DNA of 11,626 nt from Nanohaloarchaea archaeon PL-Br10_U2g5. Lineage in GTDB: Archaea; Halobacteriota; Halobacteria; Halobacteriales; Haloferacaceae. Position 1 is the first letter of the stretch, and each line of letters opens with the position of its first letter. Below the pieces are notes generated by a model, which was not told the origin of the DNA, ran no database searches, and worked only from the letters and a program-made list of their open reading frames with translations. Positions 1 through 11,530 of this stretch are shown one piece after another. Made by a program: the position numbers and the translations under genes. The stretch spans positions 1 through 11,626 of the forward strand of contig LKMY01000036.1 in assembly GCA_001564205.1 (NCBI GenBank), in the 5' to 3' direction.

Positions 1-752
1 GGACTCGCGTCGGCGTCCTCGCGGAAGAGGTACTGTGTCCACTCGCGGTCGCCTTCGACGCCCCAGTCGCCGAGGTCGGCGTGCGGACAGACGCCGTCGT
101 AGTCGCCCATCCGCTCGCGTATCGTCTCGCGGGCGCGCTGGCCCGCTTCGGTGTCGGCGGTGAGCCCCTCGAAGACGGCCCGCGGTTGGAACGTGATCTC
201 CAATCCGACCGGCGAGTACCGGCTCATACGCTCGTCGTAAAAAGGCGCCCGCGACGTCGGAAACAGCGGCTCGCCGCCGAAACAGAACTCCCAGCGGGAG
301 TCGTCGGGATCCGTGGGAATCTCGTCGGGCCACGGCTCCGGGTCGTGAACGTGGAGGAATTCGAGTACGTGCCACAGCCGTTCGTGATACCGCGCCTCGC
401 CGGGCGCCACATCGGCGTCGACAGCGGGTTCACCGCCGGGCGGACGGAAGAACACGGCGAGCGGTGCGCGCTCGGCGTGGTCCGGGTACACGCGAAGGTA
501 CTCCAAGAGCGTGTCGCGGAGGCGGAGCAGCGCGGCCGGATCGGTCGTCGACTCGCAGGCGGCGTACAGCAGCTCCCCGTTCTGCTCGACTTCGATCCCG
601 AAGTAGCAAGGAAACGGCGAGCCGTCGCGCTCGCCGAGCATCGACTCTCGAAAGGTTCGATAATGCTGTTGTAGCCAGTCGGGGGCGTCGTCGACCCGGT
701 CGCGGAGGGTCTCCTGATCTAACAGCACGCCCTCGGTTCCGGGCTCGTTCAT
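1..752 (-). CDS. YqcI/YcgG family protein (3' end cut by window edge)
   Basis: The reading frame opens with ATG at 752 on the minus strand and runs without a stop to base 1, giving about 250 residues. The protein starts MNEPGTEGVLLDQETL and carries a FPCYFGIE stretch near residues 47-54. This is followed by a leucine-rich helix (ALLRLRDTLLEYLRVYP), an aromatic-rich middle (RYHERLWHVLEFLHVHD) and, later, MSRYSPVGLEITFQPR. This pattern matches the YqcI/YcgG family, a family of unknown biochemical function found in bacteria and haloarchaea. The family is usually about 240-260 residues, so probably only a few C-terminal residues are missing. An AAATTA box lies 25 nt upstream of the ATG, so it is probably transcribed alone and leaderless. 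The neighbouring downstream gene is outside the window, and nothing here suggests a role. The family call is from recalled motif similarity. Confidence 0.8.
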   Translation of the reverse strand, partial: MNEPGTEGVLLDQETLRDRVDDAPDWLQQHYRTFRESMLGERDGSPFPCYFGIEVEQNGELLYAACESTTDPAALLRLRDTLLEYLRVYPDHAERAPLAVFFRPPGGEPAVDADVAPGEARYHERLWHVLEFLHVHDPEPWPDEIPTDPDDSRWEFCFGGEPLFPTSRAPFYDERMSRYSPVGLEITFQPRAVFEGLTADTEAGQRARETIRERMGDYDGVCPHADLGDWGVEGDREWTQYLFREDADAS

Positions 753-879: not shown

Positions 880-1434
880 TCAGTCGAGTTCGACCGCTCG
901 ATCGGCCCACGTTCGGAGACGCTGAAGCGCTTTTCGCTCCCGTCGTGACACCGCGTCGTTGCTCCCGAACTCGTCTCCCTCGTAAGCGTTGACCACGACG
1001 CAGTCTGCGCCGTCACAGTATTCGAGAAAGCGCGTGAGTTCGCCGACTTCATGCTGGAAAGCGATGGTTGCATCGTTGATGAAGACGGCTTGTGGATCCG
1101 GCGGCGCGGCGTCGAGCCACCGGTTCGCTTGCGCGGCGTTCTCTCGGGCGAGGGCACGGACCTCAGCCGCCGTCTGTCCCTGGGAGCGTGGCGCGTTGGC
1201 GTCGACGGTAGCAGTCCAGACGTCATCGGGTATCTGAGTGAACCGGTCCAGTCGACCGCCGATAACGCGGTCGTTTCGCTCTAACTCGGGACCGAACTCG
1301 AAGACGACCGTTTCACACGGGTCGTGATCGCCGAGCCACTCTGCAAGGGCCTGTGCAGTCGCCGTCGTTTTGCCGGCCCCTGACACCCCGACGATCAGCG
1401 TCGACCCGGTTAGGGGAAACGGGAGGTCGGTCAT
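880..1434 (-). CDS. Small P-loop NTPase, coupled to the NRAMP-like transporter gene
   Basis: This 184-residue soluble protein has a clear Walker A motif, GVSGAGKT at residues 16-23, with catalytic Lys22. A hydrophobic strand ending in Asp (AVFIND, Asp121) is a likely Walker B. A further strand, CVVVNAYEGDEFGSNDAVSRRE (about 145-166), precedes an Arg-rich C-terminal helix. It binds and probably hydrolyses ATP or GTP, or phosphorylates a small molecule. No TKxD-type GTPase specificity motif is evident, and I cannot name a subfamily. The ATG at 1434 overlaps the stop of the transporter gene in an ATGA arrangement, so the two are co-transcribed and probably translationally coupled. That suggests the NTPase regulates or serves the transporter. 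It is not an ABC ATPase: there is no LSGGQ signature and the protein is too short. Alternative readings are a nucleotide-kinase-like enzyme or a stand-alone regulatory ATPase. Confidence 0.85.
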   Translation of the reverse strand: MTDLPFPLTGSTLIVGVSGAGKTTATAQALAEWLGDHDPCETVVFEFGPELERNDRVIGGRLDRFTQIPDDVWTATVDANAPRSQGQTAAEVRALARENAAQANRWLDAAPPDPQAVFINDATIAFQHEVGELTRFLEYCDGADCVVVNAYEGDEFGSNDAVSRRERKALQRLRTWADRAVELD

Positions 1435-2756
1435 GCGAGCGAGGTCTCCTCTCGGACGTAGTTGAAGAACAGAACGACTGTCGCGGCTCCGAGCACGAGC
1501 CCGAATGCGAGGACGGCGCCTGAGAGCGCGTCGACACCGCCTCCGAGCTGCTCTCGGACGAAGTTCGCTGCGAGCGTCCCGGAGATGACCAGCAAGGCGA
1601 GCCCGCCGAGGTTCGCGAGCGTGGAGGCCGGCTCGGAAACGGCGTCGCTGTTGAGCAGATACAGCACGATTGCGATGGCAAACGGCGTCCCTACGGTTCC
1701 CAATGCGAGGACGAGCACGAGCTGTCCGATGACCTCGCCACCGATGAACGCCCCGACGCCGGAGACCAGCGCGAACGCGGCAAGCAGGCCGCGGTATCGC
1801 GCGTCTTCCACGGAGGTCCCCCAGCCGAGCTTATCAGCGAGGAGAAACGGTGGCACGATCGTGTTCCCGCCGAGGGTGGAGACGGCGGCCCCACCGAGGC
1901 CGAGGAGAAACAGCAGCCGGGCGTTTTCGCCGACCAGCGGGCCCAGCGCCGCCGCGGCCCCTACGGTCGTCAATCCCGGGTCCGAGAGAACGCTCGCTGC
2001 CACGAGAAAGATCGCGACGCTATAGATGCCGAACGCTACCAGCATCGAAATGCCGACGTCGAAGGTGGCGAGTCCGTAGTCGCGGGCGGTCCAGCCTCGG
2101 GCCCGCATCGTGTACGAGTGCATCGTGATAAGCGTGATGTGGACTGCACCGCCGAGAACCCCCGCTGCGATCAGCGCGCCGCCGATGGGCAACGAGGGGA
2201 CGAGACCGCTTGCGGCCGTGCCGTAATCGACCGGAACGACCAGCAACGAGGCGACAAACGCGAGGACGACGGCCGTCACGAGCAGTTTTGCGAGGAGCTC
2301 GACGAACCGGTAGCCACGCCCGGCGAGCCCGATTGCGAGGACGACGGCCCAGATCAACCCCCATATCCGGGCATCAACACCGGTGAGTGCCGCAGAGACC
2401 GATGCGGCGGTGTTCATAATCACGAGCTGTGCGACCCCGGCGGCGATGACCACGTCGGCGACGAGAATCCACGCCCACGTCTCGCCGACGTGGTCCTCGA
2501 CGACACCCACGATGCCGCGTTCCGTGAGGAGGCCGAGTCGCATCGCGAGATACTGTGCGAACGCGCCTGCCACCGCCGAGAGGACGACCACCCAGAGAAG
2601 GGCGTAGTTGAAACTCGCGCCGGCAGCGATCAGGCTGGCCATCGTCGCCGGGCCGGCGGCGATCGCGCCCGCCACCCAGGACGGGCCCATATTACTGAGG
2701 TACTCACGAACCGTGCCGCCGGTTACCGCGGACACGTTCGTCGTGGTATCAGTCAT
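1431..2756 (-). CDS. NRAMP-fold (divalent-metal-transporter-like) membrane protein with atypical substrate site
   Basis: This 441-residue, very hydrophobic protein has about eleven predicted membrane helices. The N-terminal region (GPSWVAGAIAAGPATMASL, then ASFNYALLWVVVLS, about residues 24-60) aligns with helix 1 and 2 of NRAMP transporters. The canonical DPGN metal-binding motif is replaced by GPAT (35-38). In helix 6 the usual MPHN segment is replaced by HITLITMHS (206-214), so both canonical metal-coordinating elements are absent. The protein belongs to the LeuT/APC-type fold, but its substrate need not be Mn or Fe. I chose the ATG at 2756. An in-frame TTG at 2825 would add 23 Arg-rich residues unlike the rest of the protein. 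The gene overlaps the downstream NTPase gene by 4 bp. It could import Mg or another cation, or an organic solute. It is not assignable further from sequence alone. Confidence 0.85.
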   Translation of the reverse strand: MTDTTTNVSAVTGGTVREYLSNMGPSWVAGAIAAGPATMASLIAAGASFNYALLWVVVLSAVAGAFAQYLAMRLGLLTERGIVGVVEDHVGETWAWILVADVVIAAGVAQLVIMNTAASVSAALTGVDARIWGLIWAVVLAIGLAGRGYRFVELLAKLLVTAVVLAFVASLLVVPVDYGTAASGLVPSLPIGGALIAAGVLGGAVHITLITMHSYTMRARGWTARDYGLATFDVGISMLVAFGIYSVAIFLVAASVLSDPGLTTVGAAAALGPLVGENARLLFLLGLGGAAVSTLGGNTIVPPFLLADKLGWGTSVEDARYRGLLAAFALVSGVGAFIGGEVIGQLVLVLALGTVGTPFAIAIVLYLLNSDAVSEPASTLANLGGLALLVISGTLAANFVREQLGGGVDALSGAVLAFGLVLGAATVVLFFNYVREETSLA

Positions 2757-3256: not shown

Positions 3257-3271
3257 GTACACTGAGTACAC
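3257..3271 (+). promoter_or_regulatory. Repeated GTACAC words upstream of the doeA TATA box (possible operator)
   Basis: GTACAC occurs twice as a direct repeat (3257-3262 and 3266-3271) with a 3-nt spacer, just before the BRE/TATA region of doeA. The segment 3257-3269 is also a 13-bp palindrome with one mismatched pair. Related words (GTGTAC, GAGTACAC, CGAAATAC) occur upstream of the amidohydrolase gene, suggesting a common regulator. This is inference from a few short matches. Confidence 0.35.
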
Positions 3272-3282
3272 GAAATACTTTA
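3271..3282 (+). promoter_or_regulatory. Putative BRE/TATA element of doeA
   Basis: A purine/A-rich CGAAA followed by TACTTTA forms a haloarchaeal-style promoter. It predicts a transcript starting near 3305, with a leader of about 15 nt before the ATG at 3320. No Shine-Dalgarno sequence is evident. Confidence 0.5.
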
Positions 3283-3319: not shown

Positions 3320-4498
3320 ATGCCAGGCAACGTGTTCCCACAGTCGGAGTACGAACGGCGAGTCGAGCGGACCAAACAGCGGCTCCACGAGCGCGACCTC
3401 GACGCGGTCGTCGTCTCGGATCCCGCAAATATGAACTACCTCGCCGGCTACGACGGCTGGTCTTTTTACGTGCATCAGGCGGTGATCGTCACCCGCGATC
3501 ACGCCGAGCCGGTCTGGGTCGGGCGCGATATGGATATAAACGGCGCGCGGGCGACGACGTGGCTCTCCGAGCCGAACATGCGGGCGTACAGCGACGACCA
3601 CGTCCAGTCGCCACACGACCTCCATCCGATGGATTTCGTCGCGAACGTTCTGGAGGATCTCGACGTTGACGACGGGCGCGTCGGCCTCGAGATGGACGCT
3701 TCCTACTTCACGGCGAAGTCGTACACTCGCCTCCAGTCGAAGCTTCCGGACGCCGAGTTCGTCGATACGACGCTGCTCGTCAACTGGCTCCGCGTCCGGA
3801 AATCGGACCGAGAGATCGCGTATATGGAGGAGGCGGCGCGGATCTCCGAAGAGGCGATGCTCGCCGGGCTCGACGCCATCGAAGCCGGCGTCCCCGAGTA
3901 CGAGGTCGCCGCAGAGATCTACGACCGACTGATCCGCGGAACCGACGAGTACGGCGGCGACTACCCAGCGATCGTGCCGCTCATGCCCTCCGGCGACCAC
4001 ACCGGAACGCCCCACCTCACCTGGACCGATCGGGAGTTCGAGGAGGGCGATCCGGTCCTCATCGAGCTGTCCGGGTGTCGGCATCGGTACCACTCGCCGC
4101 TCGCGCGGACGGCGTTCGTGGGCGACCCGCCGGACGCCGTCGAGCGAACGACCGAGATCGTTGCCGAGGGGATCGACGCTGCGCTGGACGCGATCGAACC
4201 GGGCGTCACCTGCGAGACGGTCGAGCAGGCGTGGCGTGAGACGATCGCGCAGTACGGCGTCGAAAAAGAGGACCGAATCGGCTACTCGGTGGGGCTCGGC
4301 TACCCGCCGGATTGGGGCGAACACACCGCCAGCATCCGCCCGGGCGACGAAACCGTCCTCGAAGAAGGAATGACGTTCCACATGATCCCCGGGCTCTGGG
4401 AAGACGAGTTCGGGGTCGAACTCAGCGAGACGTTCCGCGTCACGTCCACCGGCGTCGAGACGCTCGCTGACTTCCCGCGCGAGCTGTTCACGGTCTAG
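3320..4498 (+). CDS. doeA: Ectoine hydrolase (DoeA/EutD type, M24 fold)
   Basis: The 392-residue protein matches bacterial DoeA/EutD, which opens the ectoine ring to N-acetyl-2,4-diaminobutyrate in the cytoplasm. Family-typical blocks are visible in order: DPANMNYLAGYDGWSFYVHQ (34-53), HVQSPHDLHPMD (94-105), GGDYPAIVPLMPSG (212-225), IELSGCRHRYHSPLART (248-264) and GYSVGLGYPPDWGEHTASI (321-339). In ordinary M24 peptidases the fifth-block region carries two metal-binding Asp residues. Here they are Glu249 and Pro260, as in the metal-free ectoine hydrolases, where the Glu acts as the catalytic residue. The length agrees with the family (about 390-400). I start at ATG 3320 because MPGNVFPQSEYERR matches the usual N terminus. 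An in-frame GTG at 3296 lies too close to the TATA box. The gene converges on the dehydrogenase gene with 36 bp between stops. A generic Xaa-Pro peptidase is the less likely alternative. Confidence 0.9.
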   Translation: MPGNVFPQSEYERRVERTKQRLHERDLDAVVVSDPANMNYLAGYDGWSFYVHQAVIVTRDHAEPVWVGRDMDINGARATTWLSEPNMRAYSDDHVQSPHDLHPMDFVANVLEDLDVDDGRVGLEMDASYFTAKSYTRLQSKLPDAEFVDTTLLVNWLRVRKSDREIAYMEEAARISEEAMLAGLDAIEAGVPEYEVAAEIYDRLIRGTDEYGGDYPAIVPLMPSGDHTGTPHLTWTDREFEEGDPVLIELSGCRHRYHSPLARTAFVGDPPDAVERTTEIVAEGIDAALDAIEPGVTCETVEQAWRETIAQYGVEKEDRIGYSVGLGYPPDWGEHTASIRPGDETVLEEGMTFHMIPGLWEDEFGVELSETFRVTSTGVETLADFPRELFTV

Positions 4499-4534
4499 CT
4501 CGACCGACGAATCCGCGATTAACTCGGCCCCTGG

Positions 4535-5521
4535 CTACGTGTCCGCCTCAGCCGGAGCGCGAACGAGGTTCCGGAGCGCTCCGACGTCCCGACCGTCGTC
4601 GAGCGCGGCGACGTTGTCCGCGACGATCTCGGCGAGCCGATCCCAGTGCTTCGGCGTGTGTCCGCCCGTATGCGGCGTGATAAGGCAGTTCTCCAACTCC
4701 CACAGCGGATGCTCCGCAGGGAGTGGCTCTGGGTCGGTCACGTCCAATGCGGCTCCCCGGATCCCGCTGGACTGGAGCGACGAGACCAGCGCGTCGGTGT
4801 CGACGATCCCTCCGCGAGCAGCGTTGACGACGACGGCTTGTGGCGGCAGGGTCGCTAGCTCTTCCGTTCCGATCAGCCCTCGCGTGAGGTCGTTGAGCGG
4901 GCACGCGACGACGACGTAGTCGCTCCGAGCGAGCGCGTCGTGGATCGCGTCAGTCTCGAAGCCAACCACTTCGTCGGTCGGTCCGCCTTTCGAAGGCGTG
5001 TAGCGAACGCCGATTGTCTCCACGTCGAACCCGTCGAGCCGCTCGACGACGTGCTGGCCGATGGAGCCGAGCCCGATGACGGTGACCGTGCTCCCCGCGA
5101 GTTCGAACGATTGGAAGTGACGCCACTCCGCGTTCGATTTGCGCCGCCATCCCTCGTGGAGCCGCCGAGCGAAGACGAGCATGTTGCCGATCGTCTGTTC
5201 GGCGATCCCCGGCGCGTGGATGCCGCCGGCGTTGGTGACGGCGACGCCGCGATCGGCGAGCGCCTCCACCGGGACGTGATCGGTCCCGGCAAAGGTACAC
5301 GCGAACAGCTCTAGGCGGTCCGCGTCGGCGATGCGGTCCTCCGCAACGGTGATCCCGGTGACGACACGAGCCCGAGGAACGAGTTCGCGCTCGGCGGCGG
5401 GGGTTCGCGCGAGGGCCACCTCGTGGTCCGGAAGGCGCTCGCGAAGCGTCTCGGTGTACGATTCCATCGACAGTCCTTCGGTCCCCTCACGGAGAACAAC
5501 GATATCGGGCTGGTCGCTCAT
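4535..5521 (-). CDS. D-isomer-specific 2-hydroxyacid dehydrogenase
   Basis: The 328-residue protein has the two-domain architecture of the D-2-hydroxyacid dehydrogenase family, which reversibly reduces 2-oxoacids to D-2-hydroxyacids with NAD(P)H. Visible elements are the Rossmann loop GLGSIG (150-155) and the catalytic triad: Arg236 in NAARGGIVD, Glu265 in DVTDPEPLP, and His284 in ITPHTGG. The second Rossmann strand ends in VRYTPSK (172-178), with Arg and Ser/Lys where NAD enzymes carry an acidic residue, suggesting an NADP(H) preference. The substrate is unknown. The gene lies between doeA and the amidohydrolase gene, is divergent from the latter, and shares its palindrome-bearing promoter region. 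This suggests a role linked to the ectoine cassette, perhaps reducing a 2-oxoacid made from a diaminobutyrate derivative. That link is inference, since no such enzyme belongs to the known ectoine pathway. A TTATCT box about 28 nt upstream of the ATG supports the start. Confidence 0.9.
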   Translation of the reverse strand: MSDQPDIVVLREGTEGLSMESYTETLRERLPDHEVALARTPAAERELVPRARVVTGITVAEDRIADADRLELFACTFAGTDHVPVEALADRGVAVTNAGGIHAPGIAEQTIGNMLVFARRLHEGWRRKSNAEWRHFQSFELAGSTVTVIGLGSIGQHVVERLDGFDVETIGVRYTPSKGGPTDEVVGFETDAIHDALARSDYVVVACPLNDLTRGLIGTEELATLPPQAVVVNAARGGIVDTDALVSSLQSSGIRGAALDVTDPEPLPAEHPLWELENCLITPHTGGHTPKHWDRLAEIVADNVAALDDGRDVGALRNLVRAPAEADT

Positions 5522-5546
5522 GCGTGGATACGCCGCCGTGTGGCGG

Positions 5547-5552
5547 AGATAA
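5547..5552 (-). promoter_or_regulatory. Putative TATA box of the D-2-hydroxyacid dehydrogenase gene
   Basis: Minus-strand TTATCT is centred 28 nt before the ATG at 5521, consistent with a leaderless transcript. The same hexamer sits at the equivalent distance before the small membrane-protein start. Confidence 0.45.
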
Positions 5553-5596
5553 TCGAGCGTTCGCCGGTCCGGTACTTACCTTTTTTGTAGTCGAAA

Positions 5597-5613
5597 TACA
5601 CGATCATCGTGTA
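5597..5613. promoter_or_regulatory. Perfect 17-bp palindrome, probable operator
   Basis: TACACGATCATCGTGTA is an exact inverted repeat with 8-bp arms around one central C. It ends 2 bp before the CTTAAG box of the amidohydrolase gene, where the transcription factor B element should be, and about 45 bp upstream of the dehydrogenase TATA box. The length and symmetry suit a dimeric helix-turn-helix regulator. In Halomonas elongata the doe genes are controlled by the Lrp/AsnC-type DoeX, so an Lrp-like regulator is a reasonable guess. No regulator gene is present in the window. Confidence 0.7.
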
Positions 5614-5615
5614 CG

Positions 5616-5621
5616 CTTAAG
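5616..5621 (+). promoter_or_regulatory. Putative TATA box of the amidohydrolase gene
   Basis: CTTAAG is centred about 27 nt before the ATG at 5646, giving a leaderless transcript. It adjoins the 17-bp palindrome, so a bound regulator would either block or assist promoter recognition. Confidence 0.45.
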
Positions 5622-5645
5622 TCCGTCCGGGGGTCACGAGTACAC

Positions 5646-6947
5646 ATGACACGTCCCGTCTCCGAGCGACTCGTTGAGCTGCGCCGAGGCTTCCACGAAC
5701 ATCCGGAGCCCGGCTGGCGCGAGTTCTACACGACCCACCGGCTCGTCGAGGAGATCGAAGCCATCGGCGTCGACGAGCTCGCCGTCGGCAGAGAGGCGTA
5801 CGATCCCGACGACCGAATGGCGGTCCTCGACGACGACGCTCACGAGCCGTGGGTCGAGCGCGCTCGCGATCGGGGGGCCCGCGAGGACGTACTTGAACGG
5901 ACCGAGGGCGGTGTCACGGGCTGTGTCGCCGTGCTCGACCGCGGCGAGGGGCCGGCCGTCGGGCTCCGCGTCGACATCGACGGGCTGTTTATCGAGGAGT
6001 CGGCCGATGCCGACCACGTCCCCGCACGCGACGGGTTCAGATCCGACACCGACGGGGCGATGCACGCCTGCGGCCACGACGCGCATATGACGTGGGGGTT
6101 GGCTACTCTCGAAGCGGTCAAAACGAGCGACTTCTCCGGTCGGTTCGTCGTCTTCTTCCAGCCGGCCGAAGAGATCAGCGGCGGCGGGCACCCGATGGCT
6201 GAGAGCCGATTCGCGGACGGGCTCGACTATCTGTTTGCGGTCCACGTCGGGCTCGATCACCCGACCGGACGGGTCGTCGGCGGAATCGAACGCCCGCTCG
6301 CGATGGCACACATCGACGCGTCCTTTGCGGGCGTTTCCGCCCACGCGGGGAAATCCCCAGAGTCGGGCGAGAACGCGATGCAGGCGCTCGGAACGGCCAT
6401 CTCGAACGCGTATGGGATCCCCAGACACAGCGACGGGATGACCCGCGTGAACGTCGGCTACGCGGAGGCCGGGAGCGCGAGCAACGTGATCGCTGACCAC
6501 GCCCGCGTGGAGGCCGAAGCCCGCGGCGAGACGACGGCGCTGAAAGAGTTCATGAAATCCCGGTTGGAACGAGGGTTTCGGGGCGCTGCAGAGTCGCACG
6601 GCTGTGAGCTCGAGTTTAACGTCGTCAGCGAGTCGCCGCGCGCAGACAGCGATCCCGCGCTCGTCGACCACGTCTCGTCGGTCGCTCGGGAGATCGACGG
6701 CGTGACCGAGGTGGTTCCGACGGCCGACTTCGGCGCGAGCGAGGACGCGACGTTCCTGATGGAGCGCGTACAGGCGGACGGCGGGCTCGCGACGTATCTC
6801 ATCGTGGGGACGGACCATCCGACCGCTCACCACACACCGACGTTCGACGTGGACGAGCGCAGCCTCCGAATCGGCGTCGACACGCTGACAGAGACCGTGT
6901 TGAGCGTCGGTGACGTCGGCTCGAACGAGCAGACAGGCGACAGCTGA
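5646..6947 (+). CDS. M20-family amidohydrolase, probable N-acetyl-diaminobutyrate deacetylase (DoeB2-like)
   Basis: The 433-residue cytoplasmic protein shows the M20D amidohydrolase pattern: RRGFHEHPEPGW (13-24), GLRVDIDGLFIEE (106-118), HACGHDAH (140-147, metal ligands Cys142 and His144), FQPAEE (171-176, with the catalytic/metal Glu pair), HVGLD (200-204), the dimerisation-domain motif SAHAGKSPESGENA, and a C-terminal His pair in AHHTPTF (His395/396). A polar insert at about 48-90 resembles the AbgA (p-aminobenzoyl-glutamate hydrolase) subgroup. Zinc-type ligands appear intact, so it should be an active amide hydrolase or deacetylase. Beside doeA, the best-fitting substrate is N-acetyl-2,4-diaminobutyrate, giving 2,4-diaminobutyrate and acetate. 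M20-type deacetylases are recognised alternatives to the aspartoacylase-like DoeB. Substrate assignment is inference from context. Alternatives are an indole-acetyl-amino-acid, aminobenzoyl-glutamate or other N-acyl amino acid hydrolase. Its stop is 1 bp from the stop of the convergent aminotransferase gene. Confidence 0.88.
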   Translation: MTRPVSERLVELRRGFHEHPEPGWREFYTTHRLVEEIEAIGVDELAVGREAYDPDDRMAVLDDDAHEPWVERARDRGAREDVLERTEGGVTGCVAVLDRGEGPAVGLRVDIDGLFIEESADADHVPARDGFRSDTDGAMHACGHDAHMTWGLATLEAVKTSDFSGRFVVFFQPAEEISGGGHPMAESRFADGLDYLFAVHVGLDHPTGRVVGGIERPLAMAHIDASFAGVSAHAGKSPESGENAMQALGTAISNAYGIPRHSDGMTRVNVGYAEAGSASNVIADHARVEAEARGETTALKEFMKSRLERGFRGAAESHGCELEFNVVSESPRADSDPALVDHVSSVAREIDGVTEVVPTADFGASEDATFLMERVQADGGLATYLIVGTDHPTAHHTPTFDVDERSLRIGVDTLTETVLSVGDVGSNEQTGDS

Positions 6948-6948
6948 G

Positions 6949-8310
6949 TTACGCCGCGATCGAGGCCGAATCGGCCGCCTTCGCGGCGTCGACGAAGATC
7001 GAGACGCCAAGCTCGATCTCTCGGTCGGTCGAGTCGAGCGGCGGTAACAGCCGGATCGTCTTTTTTCCGCAGCCGAGCGTGAGCAGGCCGCGCGCCAGCG
7101 CCTCGGCGACGACCGAATCGCGGCGGTCGGGCGTGTCGAACTCGACGGCGAGCATCAGCCCCTTTCCGCGTACGTCGACGACTGAGTCCGGGAGGTCGTC
7201 CGCGAGCAGTTCCGTCGCCTGACGGCCGCGCTCGGTCGCGTTCGACAGCAGGTCGTGTTCTTGAATGGCCTCTATCGTCAGCGTCCCCATCATCGACGCG
7301 AGGAGGTCACCGCCGCCGAACGTGGAGCCGAGCCGGTTCTTCTCGTCCGGGAATAGCTCTGCGCGCGCGACCGTCGCCCCGACGCGAAGCCCCTTCGCCG
7401 CGGTGATCACGTCCGGCTCGATATCGTAGTGCTCCGAGGCCCAGAACTCGCCGGTTCGGCCGACACCGGACTGGATCTCGTCGACGACGAGCGGGATGTC
7501 GTACTCGTCGGTGACAGCCCCGACCTCGGCCATGAACGATTCGCTCGGGAAGCGGTAGCCACCGACGCCTTGTATCGGTTCGAGGATCGCAAACGCGATC
7601 TCATCCGGATTGAGATGGCCGCCTTCGGGGGCAAGCGCGTTTCGGAGCCGTGACCCCTCAGCGTCGAAGAAGCCGCAGCCACACGTCTCGGGCGTACAGT
7701 CACGGTCGGCACAGAACGGAACCGTCTCGATTCCGGCGATCTCCGGGTAGTGGCGGGTGTACACCTCCTTCGACTTCGTGAGCGAGAGCGTGCCGAGAGT
7801 GCGCCCGTGGAAGCTCCCGCCGAACGTGTACCCGTACTTCGCGGCCGGCTTGTGGTTGTGGGTGATCTTCATCGCGTTCTCGACCGCCTCTGCGCCCGAG
7901 TTCGAGAGAAACACCGTGTCCATCCCGTACGTGGAGGAGACCTCGGTGAGCTTCTCCATCAGATGAGTTGAACCCGGGAACGCCGCTGACTCCGGATCCG
8001 GCCCCGACCCGAAGTAGAGGTCTTGCCCTGCTATTTTCATCGGCTCAACGAGGTCGAACGTTCGGAGTTTATCGAGTATCTTCTCGTTGTTGTACCCCAG
8101 CGGTGCGGCGCCGATGTGACAAGTGAAATCCATGAGGACGTTGCCGTCGACGTCGGTGACGAAGGGGCCGTCCGCCTCTTCGGTGACGTCCCAGACGAAC
8201 TCGTGAGAGTACTCGCTCGGTGCCGCGTGTTCACGGTAGTGGGCGACCCACGCTTCGGCGTTCGGCCCCGGCAGTTTGTCGGTGTCCGGCTCCGCAGTGT
8301 CCCGGTCCAT
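6949..8310 (-). CDS. Class III PLP-dependent aminotransferase, probable diaminobutyrate transaminase (DoeD-like)
   Basis: The 453-residue protein has all class III hallmarks: SNSGAEAVENAMK (136-148) and GSFHGRTLGTLS (165-176) for cofactor phosphate and ring contacts, the Asp278/Gln280 pair in VVDEIQSGVGRTGEFW, and the PLP-binding Lys306 in ITAAKGL. Family members transfer omega-amino groups of GABA, ornithine, N-acetylornithine or 2,4-diaminobutyrate to 2-oxoglutarate. With doeA and the deacetylase gene adjacent, diaminobutyrate to aspartate semialdehyde (the DoeD step) is the favoured reaction. Ornithine to glutamate semialdehyde is a serious alternative because proABC lies next door. A four-Cys segment (Cys200, 205, 210, 212) forms an insert that could bind a metal or be structural. 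The start at 8310 is supported by an ATTTAGT box about 28 nt upstream. The gene has its own promoter 174 bp downstream of proA. Confidence 0.88.
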   Translation of the reverse strand: MDRDTAEPDTDKLPGPNAEAWVAHYREHAAPSEYSHEFVWDVTEEADGPFVTDVDGNVLMDFTCHIGAAPLGYNNEKILDKLRTFDLVEPMKIAGQDLYFGSGPDPESAAFPGSTHLMEKLTEVSSTYGMDTVFLSNSGAEAVENAMKITHNHKPAAKYGYTFGGSFHGRTLGTLSLTKSKEVYTRHYPEIAGIETVPFCADRDCTPETCGCGFFDAEGSRLRNALAPEGGHLNPDEIAFAILEPIQGVGGYRFPSESFMAEVGAVTDEYDIPLVVDEIQSGVGRTGEFWASEHYDIEPDVITAAKGLRVGATVARAELFPDEKNRLGSTFGGGDLLASMMGTLTIEAIQEHDLLSNATERGRQATELLADDLPDSVVDVRGKGLMLAVEFDTPDRRDSVVAEALARGLLTLGCGKKTIRLLPPLDSTDREIELGVSIFVDAAKAADSASIAA

Positions 8311-8465: not shown

Positions 8466-8494
8466 AACCGAGTGGTTAAAGCCCTCACTCGGTT
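8466..8494 (-). terminator. Hairpin overlapping the proA stop codon (possible 3'-end or processing signal)
   Basis: AACCGAGTG and CACTCGGTT form a perfect 9-bp stem around an 11-nt loop. The hairpin spans the last codons and the TGA of proA at the end of the proCBA operon. No U-rich tract follows, so a classical terminator is not supported. It may instead protect or define the 3' end of the mRNA. Confidence 0.35.
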
Positions 8495-9828
8495 GAGCGT
8501 CGCCCTGGAACCCACTCAGCGTCCATCTCGCGGTGAGTGAACGGCTTCGGGTCCTCGCCGGCGTACGTCGCGACGAGGTGGCCGTCACCCTCGAGATAAT
8601 ACTTGTACGTGGTCAACCCGTCGAGGCCGACGGGGCCTCGGGCGTGGATCTTCCCGGTCGAGATGCCGACCTCCGCACCGAGCCCGTATCGATGCCCGTC
8701 CGCAAATCGAGTCGAGGCGTTGTGGAAGACGCTCGCGGCGTCGACGCCGGTCATGAACGCCCGGGCGGTCTCCGTGTTTTCGGTGACGATCGACTCAGTG
8801 TGTTTCGATCCGTACGTGTTGACGTGGTCGATCGCCGCGTACACGCCGTCGACGACGGCGATCGATAGCTCGAGATCGCCGTACTCCGTCGACCAGTCGT
8901 CGTCCGTCGCCGCGCCGACATCGACGATTTCACGCGTTCGTTCGTCGCCGCGAATCTCGACGCCGGCCGCCTCGTATCGCTCGACGAGGGTTGGCAGGAG
9001 CGCTTCCGCGACTGACTCGGCGACGAGCAGGGTCTCGACCGCGTTACAGACGGCCGGATACTGAACCTTGGCGTCGAACGCGATGTCGGCGGCCTCGCCG
9101 AGGTCGGCGTCGTCGTCGACGTACACGTGGCAGACCCCCTCAGTATGGCCCAGTACGGGAATCTGCGTGGCGTCCTGAACGTACGACACGAACTCGGAGG
9201 AGCCGCGAGGCATCACCAGGTCGACGGCGTCGTCGCGCTCGAGCACCCGGTCGACCGCTTCGTGTGCCTCAATGAGCTGGATCCAGCCGTCCGGCAGCGT
9301 CTCCGTCGCCTCGCGGATGGTCTCGAACAGGACCCTGTTCGACTCGGTCGCCTCGCTGCCACCCTTCAGAATGACCGCGTTTCCGGACTTCAATGCGAGT
9401 GCGGCGATCTGGACGAGCGCGTCTGGCCGCGATTCGAACACCGCTGCGACGACGCCGATCGGCACGCTGACCGTGTACAACTCGAGACCCTCGTCGAGTT
9501 CGCGCGCGGAACGGGTCGCGCCGAGCGGGTCGGCCAACTCGCCGACCGACTCGACCATGCCGGCGATAGACGCCACTTTCGTCTCGTCGAGTCGGAGGCG
9601 GTCGACGAGCGTCTCCGTGTACTCGCCACGTTCGAGCAGCGTTTCGGCCGCCTTGACGTCGTCTGCATTGGCCGACAGGATCGCGGATTCGTTCGCTCGG
9701 ACCGCCTCGGCGATCGATTCCAACGCCTCGTTTCGAGTCGCCTCGTCGGTGTTCGCCAGCCGTAACGCGGCACGCCGCGCGCCGGTGATCTGTTCGTCGA
9801 TATCGTGTTCAGTCTCGGATATGGTCAT
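8485..9828 (-). CDS. proA: Glutamate-5-semialdehyde dehydrogenase (gamma-glutamyl phosphate reductase)
   Basis: The 447-residue enzyme reduces gamma-glutamyl phosphate with NADPH to glutamate-5-semialdehyde, the second step of proline synthesis. It shows the ProA signature across its length: VSVPIGVVAAVFESRPDALV (120-139), ALKSGNAVILKGGSEA (145-160), the catalytic cysteine Cys261 in QYPAVCNAVETLL, the GSKHTESIVTENTETA block, and the C-terminal RFADGHRYGLGAEVGISTGKIHARGPVGLDGLTTYKY stretch. The length is slightly above that of typical bacterial ProA (about 415-420), with acidic extensions at both ends as usual in haloarchaea. It is the last gene of the proC-proB-proA operon, 26 bp after proB, with no obvious promoter in between. 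The start MTISETEHDIDEQ is the first ATG with good context, and a stem-loop straddles its stop codon. Confidence 0.96.
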   Translation of the reverse strand: MTISETEHDIDEQITGARRAALRLANTDEATRNEALESIAEAVRANESAILSANADDVKAAETLLERGEYTETLVDRLRLDETKVASIAGMVESVGELADPLGATRSARELDEGLELYTVSVPIGVVAAVFESRPDALVQIAALALKSGNAVILKGGSEATESNRVLFETIREATETLPDGWIQLIEAHEAVDRVLERDDAVDLVMPRGSSEFVSYVQDATQIPVLGHTEGVCHVYVDDDADLGEAADIAFDAKVQYPAVCNAVETLLVAESVAEALLPTLVERYEAAGVEIRGDERTREIVDVGAATDDDWSTEYGDLELSIAVVDGVYAAIDHVNTYGSKHTESIVTENTETARAFMTGVDAASVFHNASTRFADGHRYGLGAEVGISTGKIHARGPVGLDGLTTYKYYLEGDGHLVATYAGEDPKPFTHREMDAEWVPGRRSTE

Positions 9829-9854: not shown

Positions 9855-10760
9855 TCAGGTGCCGCCAGCGTCGCGGTCGCCGTCGACGCTCGCTCCGGTG
9901 TTGCTATCGCCGTCCGCTCTGTTGTGGCTATCTGCTGGGGCGAACAGCGTTCCGACCGGCTTTTCCGTAGCAATACGCTCGAGTACGTCCGGATCCGCGG
10001 ACCCCGCGATGATCGCCGGGATGCCGTGATTACTGGTGTCGCGGGCCGCTTCTACCTTCGTGCGGATGCCGCCGAACCCCGCGGTCGTGGTTTCGGTGAC
10101 GATCGCTTGGACGGCGTCGTAGTTCGTGTCGACGACCCCGATCAACTCGGGGTTCGGATCGTCTTTCGGGTTGCTGGTGTAGAGGCCGCCGACATCAGTC
10201 AGTATCGTCAGCAGGTCGATGTCGATTCCGGTGGCGATCGACGCCGAGAGCATATCGTTGTCCCCGATTTGTAGCTCGTCGGTCGAGATCGCGTCGTTCT
10301 CGTTGAGGATCGGGACGACGCCCCAATCGATCAGCGTCTCGACCGTCGTTCGGAAGTTCTCGAAGCGCTCCGGCGCGTGGAGGTCCTGACCGGTCAGCAG
10401 GATCTGCGCGACCGTCTGGTCGTATCGATCGAAACTCTGCGTGTAGTGCCGCATCAGGTGGCTCTGTCCGATACTCGACAGCGCCTGGCTCTGTTCTATC
10501 GTGTCGCCCGCCCGCCCGACCAGTCCCGTTCCGGCTCCGACCGCTCCGGACGAGACGAGTACAACTTCTTTACCCCGCTTGCGCAGGTCCATGACATCGC
10601 TGACGAGTTTGTCGAGTTTGACGCGATCGAGGTGTGAAGACTCGTCGGTCAGCGAGTTGGTTCCGATTTTGACGAGGACGCGGTCGGCCGCAGCGGCGTG
10701 TGCGCGCACTCGACTGGCCGTCTCCGTGTCGACGGCGCCGATCGATGCGGCATCGCTCAT
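9855..10760 (-). CDS. proB: Glutamate 5-kinase, short form without PUA domain
   Basis: The 301-residue enzyme phosphorylates glutamate to gamma-glutamyl phosphate, the committed step of proline synthesis. Amino-acid-kinase motifs are all visible: [12 protein letters not shown] (28-39, Lys31), [12 protein letters not shown] (66-77), [12 protein letters not shown] (148-159), [10 protein letters not shown] (164-173), [16 protein letters not shown] (183-198) and [11 protein letters not shown] (229-239). Many bacterial enzymes carry an additional C-terminal PUA domain of about 100 residues. It is absent here; the kinase domain ends near residue 276 and is followed by an Asp/Gly/Ser-rich disordered tail (277-301). 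The ATG at 10760 overlaps the proC stop by 4 bp, giving coupled expression. Feedback inhibition by proline resides in the kinase domain of the family, so it may still occur, but the sequence does not settle this. Confidence 0.95.
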
Positions 10761-11530
10761 TCGGCGACGTCCTCCGAGAGCTCCCGCGACCGACGCTCGG
10801 CCGCGCGGACTGCATCGGCGACCGCCTCATCGGCGTTGCTATCCCACAACACGTTCATCCCTTCAATGGTCGTCCCGTTCGGGGAGCAGACGGCGTCAAT
10901 GAGGTCGTCGACGGAGCGGTCGTCGCGTAACACGGTTTCGGCGGCGCCTCTGAACGTCTGTGCCGCCAGCGTCTCGGCCTGGTCGGGCGTTAACCCGCCC
11001 TCGATCCCCGCGGTCTTCACCGCGTCGATGAGGTAGAAGGCGAACGCCGGTCCGCTGCCGTTGACCGCGGTCGAGATATCCATCAGCGACTCATCGACCT
11101 CGGCGAACTCGCCGACAGCGTCGAGGATCGACCGGACTTCGTCGGTGAGCCCCTCCGTCGTTACCGCCGCCGCCATCGTCCCAAACTCGGCGGCGACGTT
11201 AGGCATCACCCTGACCACTGCCGCGTCCGTCCGCTCGATGACGAACGAGCGCGGGACGCCGGCCGCCAGCGTCACCAGCGTCTGGTCTGCCGTGAGGTCC
11301 AGATCGGCTAACACGACGCCGACGAGGTCCGGCTTGACCGCAAGGACGACGATCGGCGTGTCCGCGGCCGCTCCGGGGTCGTCCGTGACCCGCGACGCGC
11401 TGTCGGCGACCGACTCGCGCGCGGCCGGATCCGGGTCGATCGCCGTGATGTCGTACGCACCGGTCCGTCCAAGCCCCTTGATGAAGGCGCCGCCCATGTT
11501 TCCACAGCCGATAACGCTCACCCGTGTCAT
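10757..11530 (-). CDS. proC: Pyrroline-5-carboxylate reductase
   Basis: The 257-residue enzyme reduces 1-pyrroline-5-carboxylate to proline, completing the pathway made by the two following genes. The N-terminal Rossmann loop reads [11 protein letters not shown] (6-16). Later landmarks are [13 protein letters not shown] (105-117), [11 protein letters not shown] (157-167) and the family signature around [14 protein letters not shown] (212-225), including the substrate-contacting Ser/Asn-Gly-Thr-Thr. The second strand ends in AIDPDP with Asp32, a feature more often linked to NAD(H) than NADP(H), so the cofactor may be NADH. The length is close to the family norm (about 260-275). It is first in the operon, its ATG lies 28 nt after a TATATC box, and its stop overlaps the proB start. 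Order C-B-A places the last enzyme of the pathway first. Confidence 0.95.

Follow-up and report, generated by a model that had tools for sequence, protein, structure and literature searches.

Ring opening and deacetylation of ectoine are known from bacterial biochemistry, as set out in the covered parts of PMC5924519 and PMC8739950, and in the former ectoine consumers are described as having been held restricted to Proteobacteria. More recently, PMC13188858 (Appl Environ Microbiol, April 2026) reports, in the passages covered here, putative ectoine clusters in Halobacteria and EutD homologs in Archaea, with more than 100 matches above 55% identity; because haloarchaeal clusters are thus in print, the basic finding presented below is not new. 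A stretch of 11,626 bases of contig LKMY01000036.1, called the window throughout, was analysed, and 10 of its proteins were scanned against profile libraries. Four adjacent genes within it, encoding an M24-fold hydrolase, a D-2-hydroxyacid dehydrogenase, an M20 amidohydrolase and a class III aminotransferase, probably form a cassette with which haloarchaea break down scavenged ectoine and/or 5-hydroxyectoine. This is supported by the tree position and active-site residues of the first enzyme, the recurrence of the four genes and a shared promoter motif; the substrates, the order of the steps and the role of the dehydrogenase are inferred from gene content.

The M24-fold hydrolase of the DoeA/EutD clade (3320-4498, plus strand; 392 amino acids) was assigned by profile, structure match, tree and active-site residues, and with its start at 3320 it is as long as most of the 120 relatives listed. 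It is followed by the D-2-hydroxyacid dehydrogenase (4535-5521, minus strand; 328 amino acids; PF02826/PF00389; NF041369 at 232 bits, cut-off 400), a divergent intergenic region (5522-5645), the M20 AbgA-like amidohydrolase (5646-6947, plus strand; 433 amino acids; TIGR01891 at 249.5 bits, over the cut-off) and the class III aminotransferase (6949-8310, minus strand; 453 amino acids; PF00202 at 262 bits). The initial annotation had proposed a three-gene ectoine-degradation cassette made of the M24, M20 and aminotransferase genes; all three are real, full-length open reading frames at these coordinates, and the dehydrogenase, which is present in 81 of 81 M24-bearing genomes, had been overlooked. 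A genome was counted as M24-bearing, among 242 Halobacteria genomes, when it gave a match to the window M24 at E ≤1e-90. The closest M24 proteins among the matches listed are nine at 92-94% identity, followed by that of Halorubrum sp. DTA46 at 90%; named loci among those matches come closest in Halorubrum and, in one case, Halobellus (84-89%). The host is thus a haloarchaeon close to Halorubrum.

In the NCBIfam library, the M24 protein was matched by TIGR02993 (ectoine hydrolase DoeA) at 459.8 bits, by DoeA_2 at 257.6 bits and by PepQ at 110 bits; judged by its sequence it is a DoeA-clade enzyme and not a certified equivalog, the curated cut-off of TIGR02993 being 613 bits. Among solved structures, DoeA 6twk ranked first with 383 bits, against 114 bits for the best prolidase and 77 bits for creatinase. 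A maximum-likelihood tree was built from 73 rows, including 17 labelled as other M24 and no creatinases; some outgroup branches were flagged by the program as long. The window protein and 22 other haloarchaeal rows formed one clade (support 100/100), nested (100/100) in a 54-row DoeA clade that includes the DoeA proteins of Ensifer, Rhizobium leguminosarum, Sinorhizobium meliloti and Leisingera. All 17 other M24 rows fell outside this clade, and the next group out was made up of two of them together with two bacterial paralogs. For the active-site counts, two bacterial M24 rows lying outside the DoeA clade in the tree (L078_o9 and L078_o14) were excluded. Residues E249, P260 and Y322 (window numbering) occupy M24 metal-ligand columns in 54/54 DoeA-clade rows, which also carry I or M at position 356 (I356 in the window) and S or T at the fifth-ligand column. 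Among the 17 other M24 rows, each of the two ligand aspartates is kept in 12, the histidine in 15, the first glutamate in 15 and the second in 12, and DoeA-like residues are found in few (E in two, P in one, Y in two). Since the metal ligands are replaced throughout the DoeA clade, the window protein is likely to be a metal-free hydrolase of the DoeA type. Many relatives are labelled M24 metallopeptidase, Xaa-Pro aminopeptidase or creatinase in databases, as would suit an ordinary Xaa-Pro peptidase or creatinase lying beside unrelated amino-acid genes; this is contradicted by the placement in the DoeA clade, by the replacement of four M24 metal ligands and by the structure scores, and we give it almost no credence. 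The prolidase/creatinase reading was accordingly rejected on tree, active site and scores, creatinase by score only, and the DoeA identity proposed in the initial annotation holds, below the equivalog cut-off as it is.

The M24 protein is predicted to hydrolyse ectoine to N-acetyl-diaminobutyrate. Five haloarchaeal relatives among the matches listed are named ectoine hydrolase DoeA by NCBI (P0023, P0030, P0031, P0036 and P0060), and a relative from Natrialba magadii (P0083) is labelled as a homolog to ectoine hydrolase. Of the 272 positions invariant among four canonical DoeA proteins, 157 are the same in the window protein, a figure that could also suit an enzyme opening some other small cyclic amidine or amide in a cluster that degrades another compatible solute or nitrogen source. 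The shortfall on TIGR02993 and the origin of the downstream enzymes in other subfamilies than those of bacterial Doe point the same way, and the archaeal clusters are described in the covered part of PMC13188858 as lacking biochemical confirmation and possibly functionally divergent. Against another substrate stand 68 positions at which at least 53 of the 54 DoeA-clade rows agree, among them W47-Y50, P330-E334 and three replaced metal ligands, and a BCCT transporter gene in 31/31 sampled clusters; we regard such a substrate as improbable. The sample consisted of 31 of the 81 genomes, chosen by hand and mostly with clusters well inside long contigs, and in two of them (G028 and G003) one side of the cluster was covered. 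Extra M24 copies of about 75% identity were seen on Haladaptatus plasmids (L029, L030 and L085), where the remaining cluster genes were not in view. One Halobacteria genome carries a second DoeA-like gene (G065:C12:175687-176838), 54% identical to the window M24, which is in the range of bacterial relatives.

Across Halobacteria, 81/242 genomes were M24-bearing, and in 71 of these the dehydrogenase, M20 and aminotransferase genes all lay within 25 kb of M24. Five further genomes had the dehydrogenase and M20 only near M24, and in another five M24 lay apart, with the other three genes together elsewhere; in two of the latter (G091 and G076) M24 is at a contig end, and the assembly may be broken there. 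The dehydrogenase and M20 genes were at most 4 kb from each other in 81/81 M24-bearing genomes, a dehydrogenase relative of at least 67% identity was found in all 81 and an aminotransferase relative of at least 62% identity in 79. These counts use the best rows per search, those for the aminotransferase and M20 being drawn from M24-bearing genomes only. The four-gene set recurs in Halobacteria and is more than a chance association. Close paralogs of the M20 (55-65%) and aminotransferase (about 60%) proteins are common in the class, M24-free genomes included. Ectoine synthase gave any match at all in 11 of the 242 genomes, and only three matches, all partial (36.8-38.1 bits), exceeded the 27-bit cut-off; with the synthase nearly absent from the class, scavenging rather than own production is expected, and own ectoine synthesis was rejected. 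A phage origin was likewise rejected, the best match in phage records being 36% identical and the clusters lying on chromosomes and plasmids alike.

The octamer TTYGTGTA was counted on either strand, the other upstream regions being taken from the same loci. It was found in 32/52 regions upstream of M24, 27/39 dehydrogenase/M20 intergenic regions and 16/597 other upstream regions (11/199 for the AT-rich ones among them); as it was picked post hoc from the sequences in which it was then counted, and the loci are related, the first two fractions overstate independence. Within the regions of the 31 sampled genomes, the motif preceded M24 in 21/29 and lay within 200 bases before the dehydrogenase and M20 genes in 21/31 each. 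The window has an upstream element before the M24 gene (3257-3274) with two GTACAC copies, the second of which runs into TACACGAA (3267-3274), a match to TTYGTGTA on the minus strand. The exact octamer is absent from the dehydrogenase/M20 region of the window, which carries instead the palindrome TACACGATCATCGTGTA at 5597-5613. With up to three mismatches allowed, TACACGATCATCGTGTA had one match in the window, where 0.03 are expected by chance, and was seen in 6 of 200 shuffles; inverted repeats of this kind occurred in 11/39 dehydrogenase/M20 regions and 0/597 other upstream regions. TTYGTGTA was not found upstream of gdhB (0/13), the flavin adenine dinucleotide/iron–sulphur (FAD/Fe-S) protein gene (0/15) or threonine ammonia-lyase (0/24), and it preceded the second aminotransferase in 3/25, the small conserved protein in 3/26, Rid in 1/19 and the second M20 in 6/31, the last count being contaminated by first-M20 matches. 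Given the post hoc choice and the relatedness of the loci, the motif is support for, and not proof of, co-regulation of the M24 gene with the divergent dehydrogenase/M20 pair.

The closest solved structure to the dehydrogenase is 5mh5, a D-2-hydroxyacid dehydrogenase, and that to the M20 protein is 3io1, an aminobenzoyl-glutamate utilization protein (297 bits). Residues C142, H144, E175, E176 and H200 of the M20 protein are invariant across 12 aligned rows. The M20 proteins encoded near DoeA-clade genes at four bacterial loci reached 232-265 bits on DoeB2 (NF038260), also under its cut-off of 550; the window protein, at 94.6 bits, falls far below them, and the haloarchaeal M20 therefore looks like a different recruit. 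It is a plausible candidate for the N-acetyl-diaminobutyrate deacetylase by context, and the deacetylase role given to it in the initial annotation stands to that extent, the family being AbgA-like. DoeB (TIGR02994) exceeded its cut-off in 0/242 Halobacteria genomes, and weaker matches under the cut-off were present in 242/242. In a few genomes, matches of about 101-110 of 402.7 bits lie, by coordinates, some 10-40 kb from the cluster (G167:C26:176402, G147:C1:2134136, G148:C1:1426437, G122:C3:359415 and G032:C1:2276932), and these are possibly aspartoacylase-type relatives.

The window aminotransferase was matched by PRK05769 at 300 bits (cut-off 552) and by the diaminobutyrate transaminase model PRK06938 at 145 of 671 bits, and its closest solved structure is 7vno. 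K306 is invariant across 12 aligned rows, one of which (L081:1010-2347) is a stray, being another aminotransferase. The protein is proposed from its context to remove an amino group. At about residues 199-213 the core aminotransferases have a cysteine-containing insertion, PFCADRDCTPETCGCGFF in the window, whose cysteines are largely kept among core aminotransferases of the same cluster and are absent from a second class III aminotransferase found in relatives. This second enzyme scored 418.6 bits on PRK05769, 409 on PRK06938 and 294 on EctB, none over the cut-off. When searched at E 1e-140 or better, it was present in 6/6 genomes whose M24 is 86-88% identical to that of the window (partial in two), where it lies away from the main cluster, and in 1/20 M24-free genomes, there at 54% identity. 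These results bear on a strictly canonical chemistry, by which M24, M20 and the window aminotransferase would carry out the first three Doe steps and deliver aspartate semialdehyde to general metabolism, the dehydrogenase being merely a redox accessory. The order of ring opening, deacetylation and transamination would match the bacterial route described in the covered part of PMC5924519, and the near-constant aminotransferase (79/81) fits as well; set against this are the higher PRK06938 score of the second aminotransferase, which makes it the nearer of the two to diaminobutyrate transaminases, its distribution over M24-bearing and M24-free genomes and the dehydrogenase in every M24-bearing genome. 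Being a narrower version of the scavenging cassette, this chemistry overlaps with it, and we consider it possible and the less likely of the two. A class III aminotransferase is present as the initial annotation had it, and its assignment to diaminobutyrate is doubtful.

Long forms of the cluster on plasmids contain genes for M24, gdhB, an FAD/Fe-S protein, the D-2-hydroxyacid dehydrogenase, M20, threonine ammonia-lyase, the class III aminotransferase, a BCCT transporter, a small conserved protein, a second M20, a Rid protein, the second class III aminotransferase, aldehyde ferredoxin oxidoreductase and sometimes an IclR regulator, the complete set being found in no single haloarchaeal plasmid record. 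Near M24 in the 31 sampled genomes, M20, the dehydrogenase and BCCT were counted in 31, the core aminotransferase in 30, the small protein in 26, the second aminotransferase in 25, threonine ammonia-lyase in 24, Rid in 19, the second M20 in 16, FAD/Fe-S in 15, gdhB in 14, the aldehyde oxidoreductase in 4 and IclR in 3; M24 itself was counted in 29, two being cut by region ends. The FAD/Fe-S protein best matches the D-2-hydroxyglutarate dehydrogenase YdiJ (503 of 1350 bits). The threonine ammonia-lyase narrowly exceeds the TIGR01127 cut-off (385.7 against 378.75 bits), with 255.6 and 236.9 bits on EutB models. The BCCT class carries ectoine according to the part of PMC13188858 covered. A haloarchaeal survey (PMC12029414) reports, in its covered part, ectB without ectA and ectC in Haloarcula and Natrinema, and these ectB genes may be relatives of the second aminotransferase. 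In Halobaculum sp. CBA1158 (L145 30756-33934), genes for acetate-CoA ligase and a phosphotransacetylase-family protein follow the cluster; the ligase gene would fit the release of acetate by a deacetylase.

In the proposed scavenging pathway, the ectoine ring would be opened by M24, probably without metal as in bacterial DoeA, to give N-acetyl-diaminobutyrate, from which the acetyl group would then be removed by the M20 amidohydrolase. An amino group would be taken off by transamination dependent on pyridoxal phosphate, using the window class III aminotransferase and/or the second aminotransferase elsewhere in the genomes, and glutamate dehydrogenase (14/31 clusters) might recycle the amino acceptor. 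The D-2-hydroxyacid dehydrogenase would perform a redox step on a downstream 2-oxo or 2-hydroxy acid, a semialdehyde could be oxidised by aldehyde ferredoxin oxidoreductase (4/31), and for the hydroxylated form threonine ammonia-lyase together with Rid would be apt. The constant D-2-hydroxyacid dehydrogenase, together with the YdiJ-like oxidase (15/31), suggests a D-2-hydroxy acid intermediate. A bolder version would be an own haloarchaeal route for (hydroxy)ectoine that leaves the bacterial one after deacetylation and ends at oxaloacetate, not aspartate. There, C2 would be deaminated by threonine ammonia-lyase and Rid (hydroxylated form) or by the core aminotransferase, the dehydrogenase would reduce the 2-oxo acid to a D-2-hydroxy acid such as D-4-amino-2-hydroxybutyrate, the second aminotransferase would remove the other nitrogen, and the YdiJ-like FAD/Fe-S enzyme would pass the final D-2-hydroxy acid to respiration. 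For hydroxyectoine breakdown via hydroxyaspartate, the term hydroxyaspartate was not found in the literature among the matches listed, as far as those texts were covered. This own route seems unlikely.

Several observations weigh against the scavenging cassette. The M24 score lies under the equivalog cut-off, the M20 score is low on DoeB2, and DoeB (TIGR02994) was unmatched among the 10 window proteins scanned. The window aminotransferase has no sequence match to DoeD, and no DoeC-like aldehyde dehydrogenase was found in the window, proA being the only one of the 10 proteins with that fold. These 10 proteins also gave no match to a BCCT, TRAP or ABC transporter, and no regulator was recognised in the window. 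Dehydrogenases of 72-80% identity are also encoded in 11/161 genomes without M24, so this gene is not exclusive to the ectoine pathway; in the 17 kb surrounding each of these 11 genes, an FAD/Fe-S gene stood beside one, and in the other 10 no other cluster gene was recognised, although three of these maps (L116, L118 and L120) were poor, the gene caller not having recovered the dehydrogenase. Besides having been chosen after the fact, the motif was absent upstream of the aminotransferase (0/34, and 0/30 in the 31-genome regions) and of the BCCT gene (0/31), and it was missing at 5/6 M24 loci without the dehydrogenase and M20 genes in view, one of these being a 3.3-kb contig. The scavenging cassette nevertheless remains the probable reading, and the constant dehydrogenase, the absence of DoeB and DoeC and the shared motif suggest that the pathway exists in an archaeal variant.

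On the far side of the aminotransferase gene lie proA (8485-9828), proB (9855-10760) and proC (10757-11530) in a row, all on the minus strand, at the usual site of the BCCT transporter gene; the window thus carries a short form of the cluster, without BCCT and with proABC in its usual place. A proline-linked cassette was rejected, proA, proB and proC being near the cluster in 0/31 sampled genomes and 0/80 loci. Of the 363 positions in the glutamate 5-kinase model, the proB product (301 amino acids) matches only 2-259, so that its C-terminal part seems to be missing. On the M24 side, an NRAMP-like transporter gene (1431-2756, minus strand), also found in 0/31 sampled clusters, is preceded by a gene with no family match and a P-loop-like start (880-1434, minus strand) and by a YqcI/YcgG gene at the window edge (3-575, minus strand; PF08892 at 192 bits). 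The YqcI/YcgG product weakly matches the heme-dependent N-hydroxylase model GntA (30 of 145 bits), and a relative of 78% identity is encoded near M24 in locus L058.

In saline habitats ectoines are major solutes rich in nitrogen, and a DoeA-clade gene in 81/242 sampled Halobacteria would make haloarchaea ectoine consumers in brines. A constant D-2-hydroxyacid dehydrogenase and the lack of any recognisable DoeB hint at a route that deserves to be worked out. The cluster is present in species of Haloferax, a genus where genetics is possible.

Compared with bacterial systems, the doe/eut clusters of Leisingera plasmid L136 and Ensifer plasmid L133 encode a hydrolase of the same clade as the window M24, and L136 likewise has deacetylase and aminotransferase genes nearby. 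Unlike the window, L136 contains doeB, succinate-semialdehyde dehydrogenase, eutABC, Lrp/AsnC regulator and TRAP transporter genes and is co-directional with doeA, whereas the window genes lie on alternating strands. Its doeB product belongs to another family than M20, and its aminotransferase falls in another subgroup (PRK07482, 842 bits); the window has M20, the added D-2-hydroxyacid dehydrogenase and no DoeB or DoeC. Priestia plasmid L084 (Bacillota; 7743-21093) resembles the window in having a DoeA-clade M24 with M20 nearby, and differs in its genes for PucR, EutB, cyclodeaminase, a cystathionine gamma-synthase family protein, homoserine dehydrogenase and aldehyde dehydrogenase. Its M20, 28% identical to that of the window, is nearer to DoeB2 (232 against 95 bits, both under 550). 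The L084 gene set is perhaps another way of finishing the ectoine pathway.

As in the window, the archaeal EutD homologs of PMC13188858 stand, in the passages covered, within gene clusters; these include aminopeptidase, aminotransferase and BCCT genes and are conserved from genus to genus. The string 'hydroxyacid' occurs 0 times in its main text, and the dehydrogenase may appear in supplementary Figs S10 and S11; a promoter motif, as described here, is not mentioned in the passages covered. No experimental report of haloarchaeal ectoine catabolism was found in the titles and abstract openings listed, in a search that left subscription journals outside. The occurrence in archaea, which the initial annotation took to be little described, is therefore already in print in PMC13188858, and the remaining interest of the locus is an archaeal variant that shares its first enzyme with the bacterial clusters and has a different second half.

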